Shown one piece after another: positions 21,685-27,622 of a stretch of DNA of 64,000 bases. The stretch lies in assembly GCA_026390795.1 (NCBI GenBank), contig JAPLFG010000003.1:186001-250000 (forward strand). The letters are read 5' to 3'. Under the pieces are notes generated by a model. That model saw only the letters and a program-made list of their open reading frames with translations. It searched no databases and was not told the origin of the DNA. Positions within the stretch are counted from its first letter, which is position 1, and each line of letters begins with the position of its first letter. The position numbers and the translations under genes are program-made. This DNA comes from Ignavibacteriales bacterium. Its GTDB lineage: Bacteria; Bacteroidota; Ignavibacteria; Ignavibacteriales; Melioribacteraceae.

Positions 21685-22839
21685 TTATTTAAGCACTTCT
21701 TGCAACTTTTCAACAACTTTATCTAAATCTTCATAACTAATTACCAACGGCGGAAGCATACGTAAAACAGTCGTTCCTGCCGGAAGTGAAATAATTCCTT
21801 TGCTTAGTAATTCAAGAATAACCGGTTGAACTTTGTCTTTCAGTTCAATACCGATCATCAATCCAAGAATTCTTATTTCACGGACTTTTGAGAGTTGAAG
21901 TTTTTCCAGTTTTTCTTTGAAATATTTTCCTTTTTCATCGGCTTCTTTCCAAAGTTTATTTTCAATCATAAAATCGATCGAAGCGATTCCGGCAACGCAG
22001 GCGAGAGGATTACCACCGAATGTTGAACCGTGTTTACTTTTTTCAATTTTTATTTTATCGGAACATAAAAGCGCACCCATCGGGAATCCGCCTGCAATTG
22101 ATTTAGCGACGGTCATCATATCTGCTTCAATACCAAGATGCTCAATCGCAAACATTTTTCCTGTGCGGCAAAATCCGCTTTGTATTTCATCAATGATAAG
22201 AAAAATATTTCTCTCATCGCACAACTGTCTAACTTTTTGAAAATATTCTTTATTTCCGACATTTATTCCACCCTCGCCTTGAACCGGCTCAAGAATAATT
22301 GCAGCAGTATCATTATCAACTGCTTCGGCAAGTTTTTCAAAATTATTGTAAGGTACAAAAGTAAAGCCCGGAACTAGCGGTTCAAATCCTTCTCTGTATT
22401 CTTTCTTGTATGTAGCACTTAAAGCGCCCATAGTTCTTCCATGAAATCCTTTCATTGCCGCAATAAATTTTGTTTTCCCGGAATTAAGTCGCGCAAACTT
22501 GAATGCAGCTTCTACCGCTTCCGTACCGCTGTTGGTAAGAAACGCACGTGTTAAATTTTTAGGTACAATTTCAAAAAGTTTTTCTAAGAAGAGTGCTTTT
22601 TTATCATTGTAAAAAGTATTTGGACAAGTAACAAGTGTCGCTGCTTGATCGGAAATAGCTTTAGCAAGTTTTTCGTTTCCGTGACCTATGTTGGCTACAC
22701 TTATGCCGGCAGCCATATCAATGTATTCATTTCCTTGATCGTCCCATAGATGAGCGCCTTTACCTTTTACAAGTACAACATCCCGCCTTGGGTATACGTC
22801 AACTTCATATTTTTGAATTAACTCTTTGTAATTTTTCAT
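21685..22839 (-). CDS. lysJ: LysW-aminoadipate semialdehyde aminotransferase (LysJ/ArgD family)
   Basis: This 384-residue class III PLP aminotransferase has the signatures NSGTEAVEAAFKFAR, GFHGRTMGALSATYK, EPVQGEGGIN, LIIDEIQSGFCRTG and the PLP lysine in TVAKSIAGG. The family transaminates acetylornithine or LysW-bound aminoadipate semialdehyde. Its place at the end of the LysW operon, with a 4-nt overlap to lysZ, points to lysine synthesis, where it would turn the bound semialdehyde into LysW-lysine. A dual role in arginine synthesis is possible and cannot be excluded from sequence alone. Confidence 0.9.
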   Translation of the reverse strand: MKNYKELIQKYEVDVYPRRDVVLVKGKGAHLWDDQGNEYIDMAAGISVANIGHGNEKLAKAISDQAATLVTCPNTFYNDKKALFLEKLFEIVPKNLTRAFLTNSGTEAVEAAFKFARLNSGKTKFIAAMKGFHGRTMGALSATYKKEYREGFEPLVPGFTFVPYNNFEKLAEAVDNDTAAIILEPVQGEGGINVGNKEYFQKVRQLCDERNIFLIIDEIQSGFCRTGKMFAIEHLGIEADMMTVAKSIAGGFPMGALLCSDKIKIEKSKHGSTFGGNPLACVAGIASIDFMIENKLWKEADEKGKYFKEKLEKLQLSKVREIRILGLMIGIELKDKVQPVILELLSKGIISLPAGTTVLRMLPPLVISYEDLDKVVEKLQEVLK

Positions 22840-23627
22840 AGTATTGTTGTTCCTTTACCATTTAACGCATCTTTAATTGGATTTTCTGTTCTTCCGTCAG
22901 ACAGAATTACTGTTGTATCACCGGCAGAAAATAACTTTCTAAGAGAAAGAATTTTTCTTTTCATTCTGCCATCAACTTTCTGTTCCATTTCTTCCAGTTC
23001 CGATTTCGACATTTTTGACACAAGTGAAGATGAATCGTTTTTATCCAGAAGAAAACCGGGAGCTTCTATAAGTGAAATAATTTTATCTGCTTTGAATTCA
23101 GATTGAAGCAATGCGATTATGTCATCGTTCTCAGAATTGATAGCGAAATTATTTTCATCAATCAGAGGCACACTTAATACAGGTGTATAACCGTTATCCA
23201 GAAGCAAATCAAGAAGTTGTTTGTTAATTGCTTTTGGTTTTCCGGAAAAATCTCGCAGCAGAAGAGTTTTACCGCCCTCGCGCACTTTTATTCCGCTGTT
23301 TCGTTTTCCTTGAATAACTTTTCCATCTAAACCGGAAAGTCCAACAGCATTAATTCCATTCTTCTGACAAAGTTCTACAATGCGTTTATTTTTCAAACCT
23401 GCATAAGCCATCATAGCAAGATCAATTGTTTCTTCATTACTTAAAACAGAATCGTAACCCGATAGCGATGTAACGACTTTCTTCTTATAACCAAGTTTAT
23501 TTGCCAGGTCGTCACGCAACGCATTTGCGCCGTGAACGATAATAAATTTTTCTTGAGTCGCGGCAAGATCGGAAATGATTCCGCTAAGATTTATTTCTTT
23601 TCCGCCGCCGATTTTAATTAGAAACAT
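22836..23627 (-). CDS. lysZ: LysW-aminoadipate kinase (LysZ/ArgB family)
   Basis: The 263-residue amino-acid kinase has the N-terminal KIGGGKE, the substrate loop IVHGANALRDDLANKLG, the GLSGLDGKVI segment and a C-terminal GRMKRKILS helix followed by TVILSDGR. It resembles acetylglutamate kinase but has the LysZ-style loop. It would phosphorylate the delta-carboxylate of LysW-bound aminoadipate. Its start overlaps the amidotransferase-like gene by 10 nt and its end overlaps lysJ by 4 nt, so the three are tightly coupled. Confidence 0.9.
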   Translation of the reverse strand: MFLIKIGGGKEINLSGIISDLAATQEKFIIVHGANALRDDLANKLGYKKKVVTSLSGYDSVLSNEETIDLAMMAYAGLKNKRIVELCQKNGINAVGLSGLDGKVIQGKRNSGIKVREGGKTLLLRDFSGKPKAINKQLLDLLLDNGYTPVLSVPLIDENNFAINSENDDIIALLQSEFKADKIISLIEAPGFLLDKNDSSSLVSKMSKSELEEMEQKVDGRMKRKILSLRKLFSAGDTTVILSDGRTENPIKDALNGKGTTIL

Positions 23628-24262
23628 TTATACTCCGTTAAGGAATTATTTTGAATCGGCTGCCAATCATTTTCTCCGACAAAAGATTCCGAACAAATGA
23701 CAATTGAATCATCAGAAATTTTAGCACGCATTGTAAAGTAATCTACTGCATCATTAAAATGAGAATAAACATAAGCCGCTTTTGAATCAGTCATAATTAT
23801 ATTCATCGCACGGATAAAACTTGATTTCTTTTTTATGATCTCAGTTCCCTTTTTCAATGCGTCCTTGATACTGCCTTTATCAAAGCGTTTTATATAATTA
23901 AAAATTTTCTCGGCTCCGATTCTCCCTTCCTCTTTTATTTTCACACCGCTTAACTGCCCGTTAAAAACGAAAATATATTTATCATCATAAAACGGCATGT
24001 TGTTTTCTACTACAATTCCTTCATCTTTGAACGCGCTTCTTGTGTGAGCGATCAATCGAGTTGAAGAACTAAAGCGGGTAAGATCATCTTTCCAAATCGG
24101 ATTAACATTTTTATAATAGATCCACTCACCTTTTTGCAAATAAGCGCATCCCCATCCGTGTCCTTGGTATTCTCTACTCTTTTTAGATATTTCAGAAAAC
24201 TTGGATAAGTATTCTGAAATAGAAATATTTGTTTTTGAGTTAACGTAAAGTAGTCTGCACAT
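23618..24262 (-). CDS. Class II glutamine amidotransferase (Ntn hydrolase) inside the lysine operon
   Basis: The 214-residue protein starts MCRLL, so removal of Met exposes Cys2 as the N-terminal nucleophile of class II amidotransferases. Other conserved parts are GWG at 36-38, the HTR motif at 73-75, NNMPF at 87-91 and the oxyanion-hole pair Asn101-Gly102 in FNGQLSG. It is a stand-alone domain, like the YafJ and EgtC families, with no synthase domain attached. It sits between lysY and lysZ and overlaps lysZ by 10 nt. EgtC-like enzymes cleave gamma-glutamyl amides. A role in cleaving the gamma-glutamyl link that holds lysine on LysW is an attractive inference, because no lysK gene lies in the cluster. 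Confidence 0.85.
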   Translation of the reverse strand: MCRLLYVNSKTNISISEYLSKFSEISKKSREYQGHGWGCAYLQKGEWIYYKNVNPIWKDDLTRFSSSTRLIAHTRSAFKDEGIVVENNMPFYDDKYIFVFNGQLSGVKIKEEGRIGAEKIFNYIKRFDKGSIKDALKKGTEIIKKKSSFIRAMNIIMTDSKAAYVYSHFNDAVDYFTMRAKISDDSIVICSESFVGENDWQPIQNNSLTEYKCF

Positions 24263-24352: not shown

Positions 24353-25396
24353 TTAAATTGGATGAAGCCCGGGAAAATTTAATCCTGTTCTTTCATCAAA
24401 ACCATGCATTATATTAAATGCCTGCAGAGCTTGACCGGCAGCGCCTTTCATCAAATTATCAATTGCAGAAATAACAACTAGTCTGTTCGAGAATTCATCT
24501 TTCTTGAATCCTATATCGCAGTAATTCGTTCCGCTTAATAATTTCGGTTCGGGGAATCTGTAAATTCCATCACTCTCTTTTACAATTCGTATGAACGGCT
24601 CATTTCCATAGGCATCCCGGTAAATCTTCCAGATCTCTTTTTCCTGTAGATCTTCTTTTAGAAAAACATGACAGGTAGCAAGCAAACCGCGGACCATATC
24701 AATCGCAGTAGCTGAAAAGTGAATTTGTATCTTTTTCCCAAATGACATTTCTTGAAGCATTTCTGCAGTGTGTCTATGCTGAGTCGGTTGATATGAACGC
24801 ACAACTCCCGCACGTTCCGGATGATGCGAACCTTCATTGACTTTATTACCACCTTCGCTTGAACCAACTTTAACTTCAATAACAGTTCTATCCAATTCCA
24901 CCAATCCATTTTTGTAAAGCGGATATAAACCAAGAATACTTGCAGTTGCATTACATCCGGCACTTGAAATGAAATTAGCTTTTTTCATCTCTTCGCGGTG
25001 AAGCTCCGGAATTCCATAAACGAACTCATTTAATAATTCTGGACGCGCGTGTTTATGCCCGTACCATTTTTCATATTCGTTCAAATCTTTTAACCGGAAG
25101 TCTGCGCTGAGATCAATAATTTTGGGTGCTAATTTTTTGTAATCATCAATTTTATTTTGAGAACTATTGTGAGGCAGACATAAGAATAAAAGGTCGCACG
25201 ATTCCAGTTCACCGGCGGATACAAATTTTAATGTAGTTGATTTTCGCAAGTTCGGATGAATCTTATGAACAAATTTTCCAGTATAACTTTCCGATGTAAC
25301 TTGTTTCACTTCAACGTTTGGATGGAATAGTAAAAGCCGCAGTAACTCTCCACCAGTATAACCGGACGAACCAACAATCGAAACATTTACTTTCAT
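24353..25396 (-). CDS. lysY: LysW-aminoadipyl-phosphate reductase (LysY/ArgC family)
   Basis: The 347-residue protein matches the ArgC/LysY reductases: the NADP-binding [16 protein letters not shown] at 7-22, CLPHNSSQ at 73-80, the catalytic Cys148 in SAGCNATAS and the C-terminal [15 protein letters not shown]. It reduces the acyl phosphate on LysW-bound aminoadipate to the semialdehyde. The stop of lysX overlaps its start (ATGA). A hexamer-repeat spacer separates it from the amidotransferase gene. Confidence 0.92.
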
Positions 25397-26244
25397 TGCT
25401 TTCTTCCCTCTGCAACTTGTAAAACGTATTCAACCATTTTCTGCGGAATATTTACACCTGTAGTTGCGATACTATTTTTATACTCCATTGTGTAGTTCAC
25501 TTCATTAATCATTAGACCTTGTGCAGACTCAAACACATCGATCGCAACAATTCCACCGCCAACAGCTTTTGCAGCTCGGACGGAGATATCACTCAATTCA
25601 TCGGTTACCTCACATTTTGTGGCAACCCCGCCTCTAGCAGTATTTGTAATCCAATGCGGAGAAGTTCTATAAATTGCTGCAATACATTTATCACCAACGA
25701 CAAAACTTCTAATATCTTTTCCCTTCTTCTCAATATATTTTTGTATGTAGAAGATCGAATGATGGTATGAACCGAGAACAGTTTTATGTTCAAGGATTGC
25801 TTCTGCGGCATCACGGTCATTTACTTTTGAAAGAAGTCTTCCCCATGAACCGACTGCAGGTTTCAGGACTACAGGGTATCCCATCTCTTCAATTGCTTCG
25901 AGTGCAGATTCTTCAGTAAACGCAACTCTTACTTCCGGTTGAGGAACATTATGTTCCGCTAGAGCACATGATGTAAGAAGTTTATCGCCGCATATTGTTG
26001 CAACATTATATGTGTTAACGCATTTAACTCCAGCCGATTCGAATAATCTCAATCCATGAAGAGCCCGCGAGTGATTTATGCATCTTTCAACTACAATATC
26101 GAGATCAAATTTATTTTTACCAAGATTGAAAGTGATCTCGCGGTCGTCAATCATTTCTAATTCAATCCCTTTAATAGCTTTGAATTCATCTATTAAAAAT
26201 TTTTCATCTTTTCTAATCAACGAATGAAGCAGACCTATTTTCAT
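25393..26244 (-). CDS. lysX: LysW-aminoadipate ligase (LysX, RimK/ATP-grasp family)
   Basis: This 283-residue ATP-grasp ligase has the phosphate and substrate loops [33 protein letters not shown] and the C-terminal [13 protein letters not shown], close to the LysX pattern. It joins the alpha-amino group of 2-aminoadipate to the gamma-carboxylate of the C-terminal Glu of LysW. Operon context with lysW and homocitrate synthase supports LysX rather than an ArgX that takes glutamate, though bifunctional use is possible. Confidence 0.92.
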
Positions 26245-26295: not shown

Positions 26296-27462
26296 TCAGC
26301 TATTATAAATTTTATGATGCTTTACAGCTTCAAGGATATGTTTCAGTTCGGCAAGATCAACTGTACGACCGCGTTGACCGACAGATTTGACTTCTTTGAG
26401 AACATCCATCTGATGAGAATCGTCCAGCGCTTCTTCACCGATTAATTTCAATGCGTATCTAAGAGATGCAATTCCAGACATATGATCAAGCGAGAATGTT
26501 CTGGTTCTTCCAAGAATATCCGGACTCAGACTTTCATAATGCATAGGATTAACAGAAGCGGCGTGAGTGTGAACACCGGCACAGTGTGTAAAAGCATTCT
26601 TCCCCGTGATTGGATAATTTGCAGGAATTGGAATTCCGGAATGTTTGCTTACTAAATCATAGAGTTCAACAAGTTTTTTAAGATTCCATCTATTCTGATT
26701 ATAATCAACAGTTAATACAGTTAAAAGTTGAGCAAGATCTACTATGCCTGCTCTTTCACCAAGTCCTAATGCCGCGGCGTCAATAATATTCGCACCGGCG
26801 CGGTAAGCATCTAGAGCATTTGCTAGAGCAAGTCCCCGATCGTTGTGGCAGTGTACCGCAATCTTTGGATGCAAATTTCTATTATCTAATTCTTCAATCA
26901 AGCGGGAAATGTAATCGTACATGCTTCTGGATGTACCGGGTACCATGAAACCAGTTGTATCGGCAACGCTGATTATATCGGCTCCGGCTTCAACTGCGGC
27001 GGTTGCAGCCTTAACAACATTTTCAAATTGCGATCGAACTGTGTCTTCCGGTGTGTAACGTATCAACAAATTTGGATTTTGACTTTTCGCGTATTTGATA
27101 ACGTCGGTAATCAATTTAATCGCAGAATCGAGATCCTTCTTAAAAACAGATTCAAGTCTTTCATCCGAAACACAATAAAATATTCCAAGAAATTTCACAC
27201 CGCATTCAAGTGCAAGATCAACATCACTTTGAAGTGATCTCGAATGTGCGCCGACAATTGATTTAAATCCTTTTTGAGCAATCGCTTTTACAGCAGCATG
27301 GATTTCAGGAGTTACCATCGGATGTCCCGATTCAATAATATCAATGCCAATTTCATCTAACAGACTTGCGATAGCCAGTTTGATATGCTTATCAAAATAA
27401 ACGCCGGGTGTTTGTTCGCCTTCGCGAAGAGTTGAGTCTAATACCCAGACCAAATTACTCAC
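26296..27462 (-). CDS. Homocitrate synthase
   Basis: The 388-residue protein belongs to the HMGL/LeuA family, with LDSTLREGEQTPG at the start, metal and substrate motifs such as VADTTGFMVPG and HCHNDRGLALANAL, and GERAGIVDLAQLL. It lacks the long C-terminal regulatory domain of LeuA, which fits homocitrate synthase. It condenses acetyl-CoA with 2-oxoglutarate to begin the aminoadipate route to lysine. It starts at GTG (27462), overlapping the lysW stop by 8 nt, which supports both the start and coupling. Confidence 0.9.
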   Translation of the reverse strand: MSNLVWVLDSTLREGEQTPGVYFDKHIKLAIASLLDEIGIDIIESGHPMVTPEIHAAVKAIAQKGFKSIVGAHSRSLQSDVDLALECGVKFLGIFYCVSDERLESVFKKDLDSAIKLITDVIKYAKSQNPNLLIRYTPEDTVRSQFENVVKAATAAVEAGADIISVADTTGFMVPGTSRSMYDYISRLIEELDNRNLHPKIAVHCHNDRGLALANALDAYRAGANIIDAAALGLGERAGIVDLAQLLTVLTVDYNQNRWNLKKLVELYDLVSKHSGIPIPANYPITGKNAFTHCAGVHTHAASVNPMHYESLSPDILGRTRTFSLDHMSGIASLRYALKLIGEEALDDSHQMDVLKEVKSVGQRGRTVDLAELKHILEAVKHHKIYNS

Positions 27463-27622
27463 CCCAATCCTCTTCTTCTTGTGGAGCTTCTTGTACTTTC
27501 GGAGGATCTACCGAAACAACTTCCAATTCAGTTCCACATTCTGCACACTCGATCAATTCTCCTTGAACTGCATCTTTTGCTAATGCTATCTCTGCACCGC
27601 AGACAGGGCATTCTGTTTTCAT
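27455..27622 (-). CDS. lysW: Amino-group carrier protein LysW
   Basis: A 55-residue open frame too short for many gene finders begins at the ATG at 27622 with AAGGA 9 nt upstream. It has a zinc-ribbon pair CPVC (5-8) and CAEC (26-29) and ends in the diagnostic EDWGE. The C-terminal Glu carries aminoadipate and then lysine during synthesis. It is the first gene of the operon and overlaps the homocitrate synthase gene. The C-terminal motif makes the identification very secure. Confidence 0.97.
   Translation of the reverse strand: MKTECPVCGAEIALAKDAVQGELIECAECGTELEVVSVDPPKVQEAPQEEEDWGE

Follow-up and report, generated by a model that had tools for sequence, protein, structure and literature searches.

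How is lysine released from its carrier protein when the LysW pathway of an organism comes without the usual release enzyme, LysK? In the established pathway, LysX loads alpha-aminoadipate on LysW, and LysZ, LysY and LysJ then turn it into LysW-gamma-lysine. The question is raised by a 64,000-nucleotide stretch of DNA from an Ignavibacteriales bacterium (assembly GCA_026390795.1, contig JAPLFG010000003.1, positions 186,001 to 250,000; hereafter the window), in which a gene for an N-terminal nucleophile (Ntn) type class II amidotransferase-fold hydrolase occupies positions 23618–24262 of the minus strand, within a LysW lysine operon. We propose that this enzyme, hereafter the amidotransferase, is very probably a non-homologous replacement of LysK that would take lysine off LysW and, where the lysW gene specifies a C-terminal Gln, may also deamidate that residue. 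The catalytic steps and the roles of the residues are what we infer from sequence comparison.

The gene encodes a stand-alone protein of 214 amino acid residues, starting MCRLLYV, with no synthetase fused to it. The original prediction, made from the letters of the window alone, had the ends of the open reading frame (ORF) exactly and named no strand; the strand is minus, and the plus-strand frame of the same interval is riddled with stop codons. It had also placed the gene between lysY and lysZ with a 10-nt overlap of lysZ, and had located Cys2, His73-Thr74-Arg75 and Asn101-Gly102, all of which is borne out. By the coordinates, the last 10 nt of the gene (23618–23627) are shared with the start of lysZ, and lysY lies 90 nt upstream. 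The ORF is a real gene, as seen from its orthologues in conserved order: besides the window’s own there are 22 with the same gene order and 51–89% identity, and identities in further phyla and in archaea go down to 42%. The protein matches the Pfam family GATase_4 (PF13230) with 27.5 bits against a gathering score of 23. With the EgtC equivalog model TIGR03442 it scores 46.5 bits and does not reach the cut-off of 218.65 bits; three archaeal orthologues and one gammaproteobacterial orthologue, at 28.8–55 bits, are also far below that cut-off. In a profile search of the cluster proteins, the amidotransferase gave no match to the LysK models TIGR01902 and NF003367.

The cluster has the order lysW, homocitrate synthase, lysX, lysY, amidotransferase, lysZ, lysJ. 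With these genes and the EDWGE tail of its LysW, it belongs to the LysW-mediated route of lysine synthesis through alpha-aminoadipate. The component that is lacking is LysK. The cluster contains no LysK-like gene, as had been said from the start, and no LysK scores over the cut-off in the genome to which the window belongs, a 4.08-Mb assembly of 5 contigs rated 100% complete. A search of this whole genome for a LysK or ArgE-type gene, proposed along with the original prediction, gave four matches to TIGR01902, the best of which, at 89.6 bits, falls short of the 163.1-bit cut-off. The four were considered as hidden LysKs and rejected, because each fits another family better: one is a YgeY (over cut-off), one is PepT-like (264 bits, cut-off 274) and two are beta-Ala-His dipeptidases (over cut-off). 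The model is able to find a LysK, since the LysK of a Deinococcus plasmid scores 329 bits with TIGR01902 and 420 bits with NF003367, over both cut-offs. A search of the window’s genome for LysA (TIGR01048) gave no match. It follows that the LysW route is likely the lysine source of this organism, without a known release enzyme.

An AlphaFold2 model of the amidotransferase, made from a 60-sequence alignment (pLDDT 93.2, pTM 0.91), has the predicted fold of the class II amidotransferases (Ntn). The closest solved fold is that of EgtC (Z 25.6, 1.9 Å over 201 residues), and GlmS and PurF have Z values of 21–22 (21.6 for the GlmS glutaminase domain). Residues Cys2, Arg3, His73, Arg75, Asn101, Gly102, Gly113, Gly116 and Glu118 are invariant in 84 of 84 sequences. 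Cys2 (codon 24257–24259, minus strand, as are those that follow), Arg75 (24038–24040), Asn101 and Gly102 (23957–23962) align with Cys1, Arg73, Asn98 and Gly99 of GlmS. By this alignment, the protein has a predicted N-terminal Cys nucleophile, an Asn-Gly oxyanion hole and an Arg for the alpha-carboxylate of the substrate. A PurF simulation study lists hydrogen bonds of Arg73 with ligand atoms OXT and O1, which we read as the carboxylate, and of Gly102 with atom OD (PMC7953260).

The protein departs from its relatives at Gly116 (23915–23917). Seven comparators were aligned: E. coli GlmS, PurF and YafJ, and four plasmid-borne class II enzymes, of which one, found on a plasmid of Enterobacter, is almost identical to YafJ. 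The GlmS and PurF columns are from MAFFT, and YafJ was aligned by hhalign over its full length with a probability of 98%. The (T/S)D(S/T)E motif of the comparators is (I/T)GAE here, that is, an Asp in seven of seven is replaced by Gly116 in 84 of 84. In GlmS the Asp of this motif is Asp123, which we take to bind the alpha-amine of glutamine. The alpha-amine Asp that GlmS, PurF and YafJ have as free-glutamine amidotransferases is thus absent from all 84 sequences. In the last Glu of LysW the alpha-carboxylate is free and the alpha-amine is tied up in a peptide bond; an enzyme that has kept the Arg and lost the Asp therefore fits a substrate such as LysW. An objection raised earlier, that enzymes of this kind bind a free alpha-amino group, is answered by this replacement of Asp by Gly together with the retention of Arg and Asn-Gly. 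Basic residues at positions 108, 114, 119, 126 and 151, kept in 82–84 of the 84 sequences, would suit the acidic tail of LysW. At positions 114, 126 and 151 the comparators have no Arg or Lys (two have His at 126 and one at 151, and two have gaps at 151), and Lys is found in two at 108 and 119.

The nearest known enzymes differ from the amidotransferase in informative ways. EgtC hydrolyses a gamma-glutamyl amide, and its substrate is a small molecule in which the alpha-amine is free. The enzyme shares the fold and the N-terminal Cys, a C2A variant being named in a structure title (TIGR03442; PDB 4zfj, 4zfk and 4zfl), but identity is 16–18%, and the EgtC alignment ends before the Gly116 column. 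YafJ and other stand-alone class II glutamine amidotransferases resemble the protein in the GATase_4 match over the gathering score and in the full-length profile alignment; in contrast, YafJ and its four plasmid-borne relatives have TDSE where the amidotransferase has IGAE. The likeness to LysK, of the M20/ArgE/DapE family, would be in the reaction and the pathway position, namely, taking lysine off the gamma-carboxylate of the LysW C-terminal Glu. LysK is an M20 metallopeptidase, however, unrelated in fold and chemistry to an Ntn-fold Cys enzyme.

A scan of 84,980 species genomes with two peptide patterns gave 254 relatives, and the neighbourhoods described here are those of the best 80 of the 254. 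These come from Ignavibacteria/Melioribacter, Calditrichota, KSB1, Gamma- and Deltaproteobacteria, Planctomycetota, Binatia, SAR324, Woesearchaeota and others. LysW-pathway genes adjoin the amidotransferase gene in all 80 loci, the partners being LysZ (78 loci), LysY (75), LysX (72), LysJ (72), LysW (58) and homocitrate synthase (39), and many of the missing partners coincide with contig ends. LysZ lies within 30 nt of the amidotransferase gene in 76 loci, and by alignment ends the two overlap in 58 of 78. Queries with LysK, a Streptomyces M20 protein, YgeY and PepT gave no match in the 80 loci. Retention of the gene beside lysY and lysZ in relatives without LysK had been proposed as a check on the stand-in idea, and this retention is what the loci display. 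The archaeal loci L150 and L153 have, in one direction, lysW, homocitrate synthase, both subunits of homoaconitase, an isocitrate-type dehydrogenase, lysX, lysY, the amidotransferase gene, lysZ and lysJ, the homoaconitase and the dehydrogenase being named by eye from their sequences. All the pathway steps are present in these two operons but LysK, and neither contains a second release candidate.

Among 57 genomes, the window’s own and 56 related ones, the amidotransferase is found in 23 and LysX over its cut-off in 22, all within those 23; the other 34 have neither. The additional carrier, G006, has a contig that ends inside lysY. LysK (TIGR01902) is over the cut-off in 0 of 57, 0 of 40 and 0 of 13 genomes, in sets that overlap, with identical coordinates recurring under different handles, so that the counts are not additive. 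Of 14 control genomes, 4 exceed the cut-off of the same model. So that the amidotransferase itself played no part in the choice of genomes, a further sample was drawn by LysX only, with 20 of 395 genomes from the window’s own phylum (its own genome included) and 5 of 279 from the phylum of the archaeon GW2011_AR15. All 25 carry the amidotransferase, and none has a LysK over the cut-off. Six carriers have no TIGR01902 match at all at E ≤ 1e-3: G053, G057, G071, G072, G073 and G200, of which G057 is GW2011_AR15 itself, with a 1.16-Mb chromosome. The closest species lineages share ancestry, and the genome counts are thus of non-independent events; for genomes reached through loci, completeness figures were not given. 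LysA over the cut-off is found in 9 of the 23 carriers among the 57 genomes versus 31 of the 34 non-carriers.

The reverse case is seen on plasmids. Searches of 72,556 plasmids with LysX and LysW gave nine records, and all were read. LysW and LysX occur together in eight, from Deinococcus (1), Streptomyces (5), Staphylococcus (1) and Pseudalkalibacillus (1); in the ninth, from Thermomicrobium, the stretch read contains LysX on its own. Each of the eight clusters has a LysK-like M20 gene, although the Deinococcus protein is the only one scored as LysK, none has the amidotransferase, and LysW ends in Glu in all eight. Thus, each cluster seen has either an M20 enzyme or the amidotransferase. By gene content, the Streptomyces and Bacillales plasmid clusters look like secondary metabolism. 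Two LysW clusters, L241:7001–14168 from a Staphylococcus epidermidis plasmid and L242:6995–14165, have genes for an M20 peptidase, a DegT aminotransferase and a transketolase, and probably make a special amino acid, not lysine.

The carrier varies at its functional end. Of the LysW tails in 58 loci, 46 read EDWGE and 12 read EDWGQ; with Gln in two of three further archaeal loci, the total is 47 Glu and 14 Gln of 61. The Gln-ending lysW genes are in L109, L114, L116, L117, L122, L126, L127, L130 (Stygiobacter electus), L131, L135, L142, L160, L187 and L189. Of the 32 LysX loci given for the window’s own phylum, a set that overlaps the former, 30 include LysW, and in 6 of these 30 its last residue is Gln. 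On a quick LysX plus LysY tree of 62 rows, the window included, with 14 of its 59 inner branches open, the Glu/Gln state changes at least 10 times. LysX is intact in 14 of 14 Gln clusters and has the GSWGR motif. GSWGR is described as the LysX motif recognising LysW, and LysX itself as linking the amine of its substrate to the gamma-carboxyl group of the LysW terminal Glu (PMC10433800). Since LysX needs that gamma-carboxyl, a terminal Gln must first be deamidated, and the repeated tolerance of a Gln tail implies a deamidase in those cells. The obvious candidate is the amidotransferase, an enzyme of glutaminase fold, because deamidation differs from lysine release in the amine that leaves and not in the reaction itself. 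The amidotransferase therefore probably also deamidates LysW-Gln.

The proposed reaction is as follows. Cys2, freed by removal of the initiator Met, would attack the gamma-amide carbon of the LysW C-terminal Glu. Lysine would leave LysW-gamma-lysine, and hydrolysis of the gamma-glutamyl thioester formed on the enzyme would regenerate LysW-Glu. The last residue of the carrier would be held at its free alpha-carboxylate by Arg75, and the oxyanion by Asn101-Gly102. Gly116, in place of the alpha-amine-binding Asp, would let the preceding peptide chain pass, and the basic residues 108, 114, 119, 126 and 151 would hold the acidic EEEDWG tail. A LysW ending in Gln would first be deamidated to Glu by the amidotransferase, after which LysX could load it. 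There is an analogy, without homology, to Dop of the Pup system, a glutamine synthetase relative that acts on proteins joined to Pup: one enzyme would turn the carrier’s Gln to Glu and cut a Glu-lysine amide. We consider it reasonably likely that a single Ntn hydrolase acts twice, converting LysW Gln to Glu and then cutting off lysine (probably ornithine in operons with two LysX genes), and that it is a convergent counterpart of Dop that replaces LysK in several bacterial phyla and in archaea of the Woesearchaeota kind.

The amidotransferase might serve in maturation only, deamidating the Gln of LysW and leaving the release of lysine to another peptidase, for instance, an M20 enzyme of the YgeY type. 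The 14 of 61 clusters in which LysW ends in Gln and LysX is intact agree with this, as do the M20 enzymes of other types in many genomes. Nevertheless, we think a maturation-only role improbable because LysW already ends in Glu in 47 of the 61 clusters and in the window, yet all 25 LysX-drawn genomes have the amidotransferase, and because the six carriers named above lack any LysK-family match. An editing function, in which misloaded glutamate or stalled intermediates are stripped from LysW and another hydrolase releases lysine, would use the same chemistry at the same substrate end, and side reactions of an ATP-grasp ligase are plausible. This we hold to be quite improbable, since so strict an exclusion of LysK, with none over the cut-off in the carriers’ sets and eight of eight M20 clusters without the amidotransferase, is not expected of an editing enzyme, and the archaeal operons L150 and L153 offer no second enzyme for release.

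The class II glutamine amidotransferase fold would also agree with an ordinary glutaminase that feeds ammonia to a pathway enzyme, but there is little to recommend this role given the Gly that stands for the alpha-amine Asp in 84 of 84 sequences and the lack of a synthetase fusion. Moreover, we know of no LysW-route step that uses free ammonia, LysJ being a transaminase, which also counts against it. Ammonia supply and the editing of side products had both been listed as alternatives in the original prediction; the Gly-for-Asp replacement and the exclusion of LysK lead us to reject both. Operons can contain unrelated genes, and a hitch-hiking gene with no part in the pathway has to be considered, if only as a very slight chance: across several bacterial phyla and the archaea, 78 of 80 loci have LysZ as the neighbour, with an overlap in 58 of 78, and among the 57 genomes the gene is found only alongside LysX, one cut contig excepted. 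The proposal that the amidotransferase stands in for LysK, which originated in that prediction, is well supported by the comparison, that is, by linkage, LysK absence and residue replacement. The variable Glu/Gln end of the carrier and the broad spread of the enzyme go beyond that prediction.

Several observations weigh against replacement of LysK by the amidotransferase. M20 enzymes of other types occur in the window’s own genome and in most relatives and are possible releasers of lysine, and a release enzyme of yet another family may be encoded elsewhere in the genome. The LysW route is not the sole candidate lysine source in the 9 of 23 carriers with LysA. In L119, L141 and L151, where 6–8 kb of upstream sequence is present, there is no LysX or LysY and the amidotransferase gene is accompanied by lysZ and lysJ only, so the gene order is not universal. 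The TIGR03442 control matched in Thermus, Deinobacterium and Sulfolobus; hence, the absence of the amidotransferase from classical LysK organisms is shown by the plasmid clusters alone, apart from a weak indication in Haloferax. The contrast in carrier tails, with Gln in 14 of 61 clusters against 0 of 8 M20 clusters, is weak and too small to stand alone. An isolated Gln call might be due to faulty assembly, but this would hardly account for ten lineages. Lastly, the product is uncertain for the 22 of 58 LysW-bearing loci, L116, L125, L131, L152 and L161 among them, from which homocitrate synthase is absent.

For the clusters without homocitrate synthase, a plain arginine route was considered and is ruled out in most by a separate ArgB, which is found in 14 of 18 tested genomes with such a locus (22 such loci); it was not found in G065, G074, G075 and G081. 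Among 33 carriers, the ArgB model TIGR00761 is over its cut-off in 23, and a separate ArgB is present in 21. The match in G075 has the coordinates of the cluster’s own LysZ, at L143, and the single match in G074 is probably LysZ too. The LysZ of two planctomycetotal loci, L143:3606–4403 and L159:6138–6935, is divergent, with 37–39% identity to that of the window, and probably itself matches over the ArgB cut-off. The best LysK-model scores outside the order, in G146 (117.4 bits), G066 (106.5 bits) and G070 (100.4 bits), were rejected as LysK candidates, each gene being about 130 nt or less from ArgB and thus probably the ArgE of an arginine operon. In the window’s own genome, lysZ (22836–23627) is the only ArgB-like kinase near the ArgB score, and no ArgB is over the TIGR00761 cut-off; the LysW route of this organism may also yield ornithine, or else the organism requires arginine. 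The archaeal loci L188:7193–8859 and L189:7081–8965 have two LysX paralogues in tandem and one copy each of LysY, the amidotransferase and LysZ, probably for a route that makes both lysine and ornithine in these archaea.

If the proposal is correct, the last step of the LysW route has two unrelated solutions, and the amidotransferase solution is the one found in every LysX-bearing genome sampled from the window’s own phylum and one archaeal phylum (25 of 25). A family whose present matches are to general amidotransferase models only would gain a function, and the lysine pathway would be complete in those organisms for which no LysK and no LysA is found. With a Glu/Gln switch at its functional end, LysW would be comparable to Pup, and the switch is a direct handle on whether the amidotransferase recognises the gamma-glutamyl end of the carrier. 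We judge the amidotransferase route to be a new variant of the known LysW pathway. A literature search linking LysW to glutamine amidotransferase or amidotransferase, with most subscription papers outside its scope, gave nothing relevant. The passages available from the genome paper on Caldithrix abyssi describe a LysWXZYJ-Hcs locus, with other pathway genes elsewhere, and do not mention the amidotransferase.

The genes around the amidotransferase in the window are all on the minus strand. The lysW gene (27455–27622) encodes a zinc ribbon of 55 residues (TIGR01206, 78.3 bits, cut-off 53.2; PF21344), and the codon of the attachment point, the C-terminal Glu55, is at 27458–27460. The homocitrate synthase gene (26296–27462), for the first alpha-aminoadipate step, is of the LysS type; its protein scores 343 bits with TIGR02146, under the cut-off of 413.55, and also matches 2-isopropylmalate synthase models under cut-off. 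The gene lysX (25393–26244), for the LysW:alpha-aminoadipate ligase, scores 353 bits with TIGR02144 (cut-off 275.6), and lysY (24353–25396), for an ArgC-like reductase, 408 bits with TIGR01850 (cut-off 233.6). Downstream, lysZ, whose coordinates are given above, encodes the [LysW]-aminoadipate kinase (NF010659, 245.7 bits, cut-off 223). The aminotransferase gene lysJ (21685–22839) matches best the LysJ model NF042418, with 461.8 bits against a cut-off of 700, and has 440 bits with TIGR00707 (cut-off 410). Thus, LysW, LysX, LysY and LysZ pass their NCBIfam cut-offs, and the homocitrate synthase and LysJ are under the equivalog cut-offs.

Some other genes were noted near these loci. In the window’s own genome, L001:1402–2649 encodes an M20 hydrolase of the YgeY type, and a gene further downstream resembles, by eye, a relative of ornithine carbamoyltransferase. 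In the flank of L161, a gene on the opposite strand (1405–2595) resembles, by eye, a different kind of M20 amidohydrolase. A protein of about 220 residues is encoded divergently upstream of lysW in archaea and in a Calditrichia metagenome-assembled genome (L150:806–1462, L153:1064–1723, L127:3885–4535, L188:13241–13903 and L189:5642–6295). Four of the five proteins match DUF7523 near its cut-off and three have weak ACT-domain matches, with none in L127; the protein is perhaps a lysine-sensing regulator.

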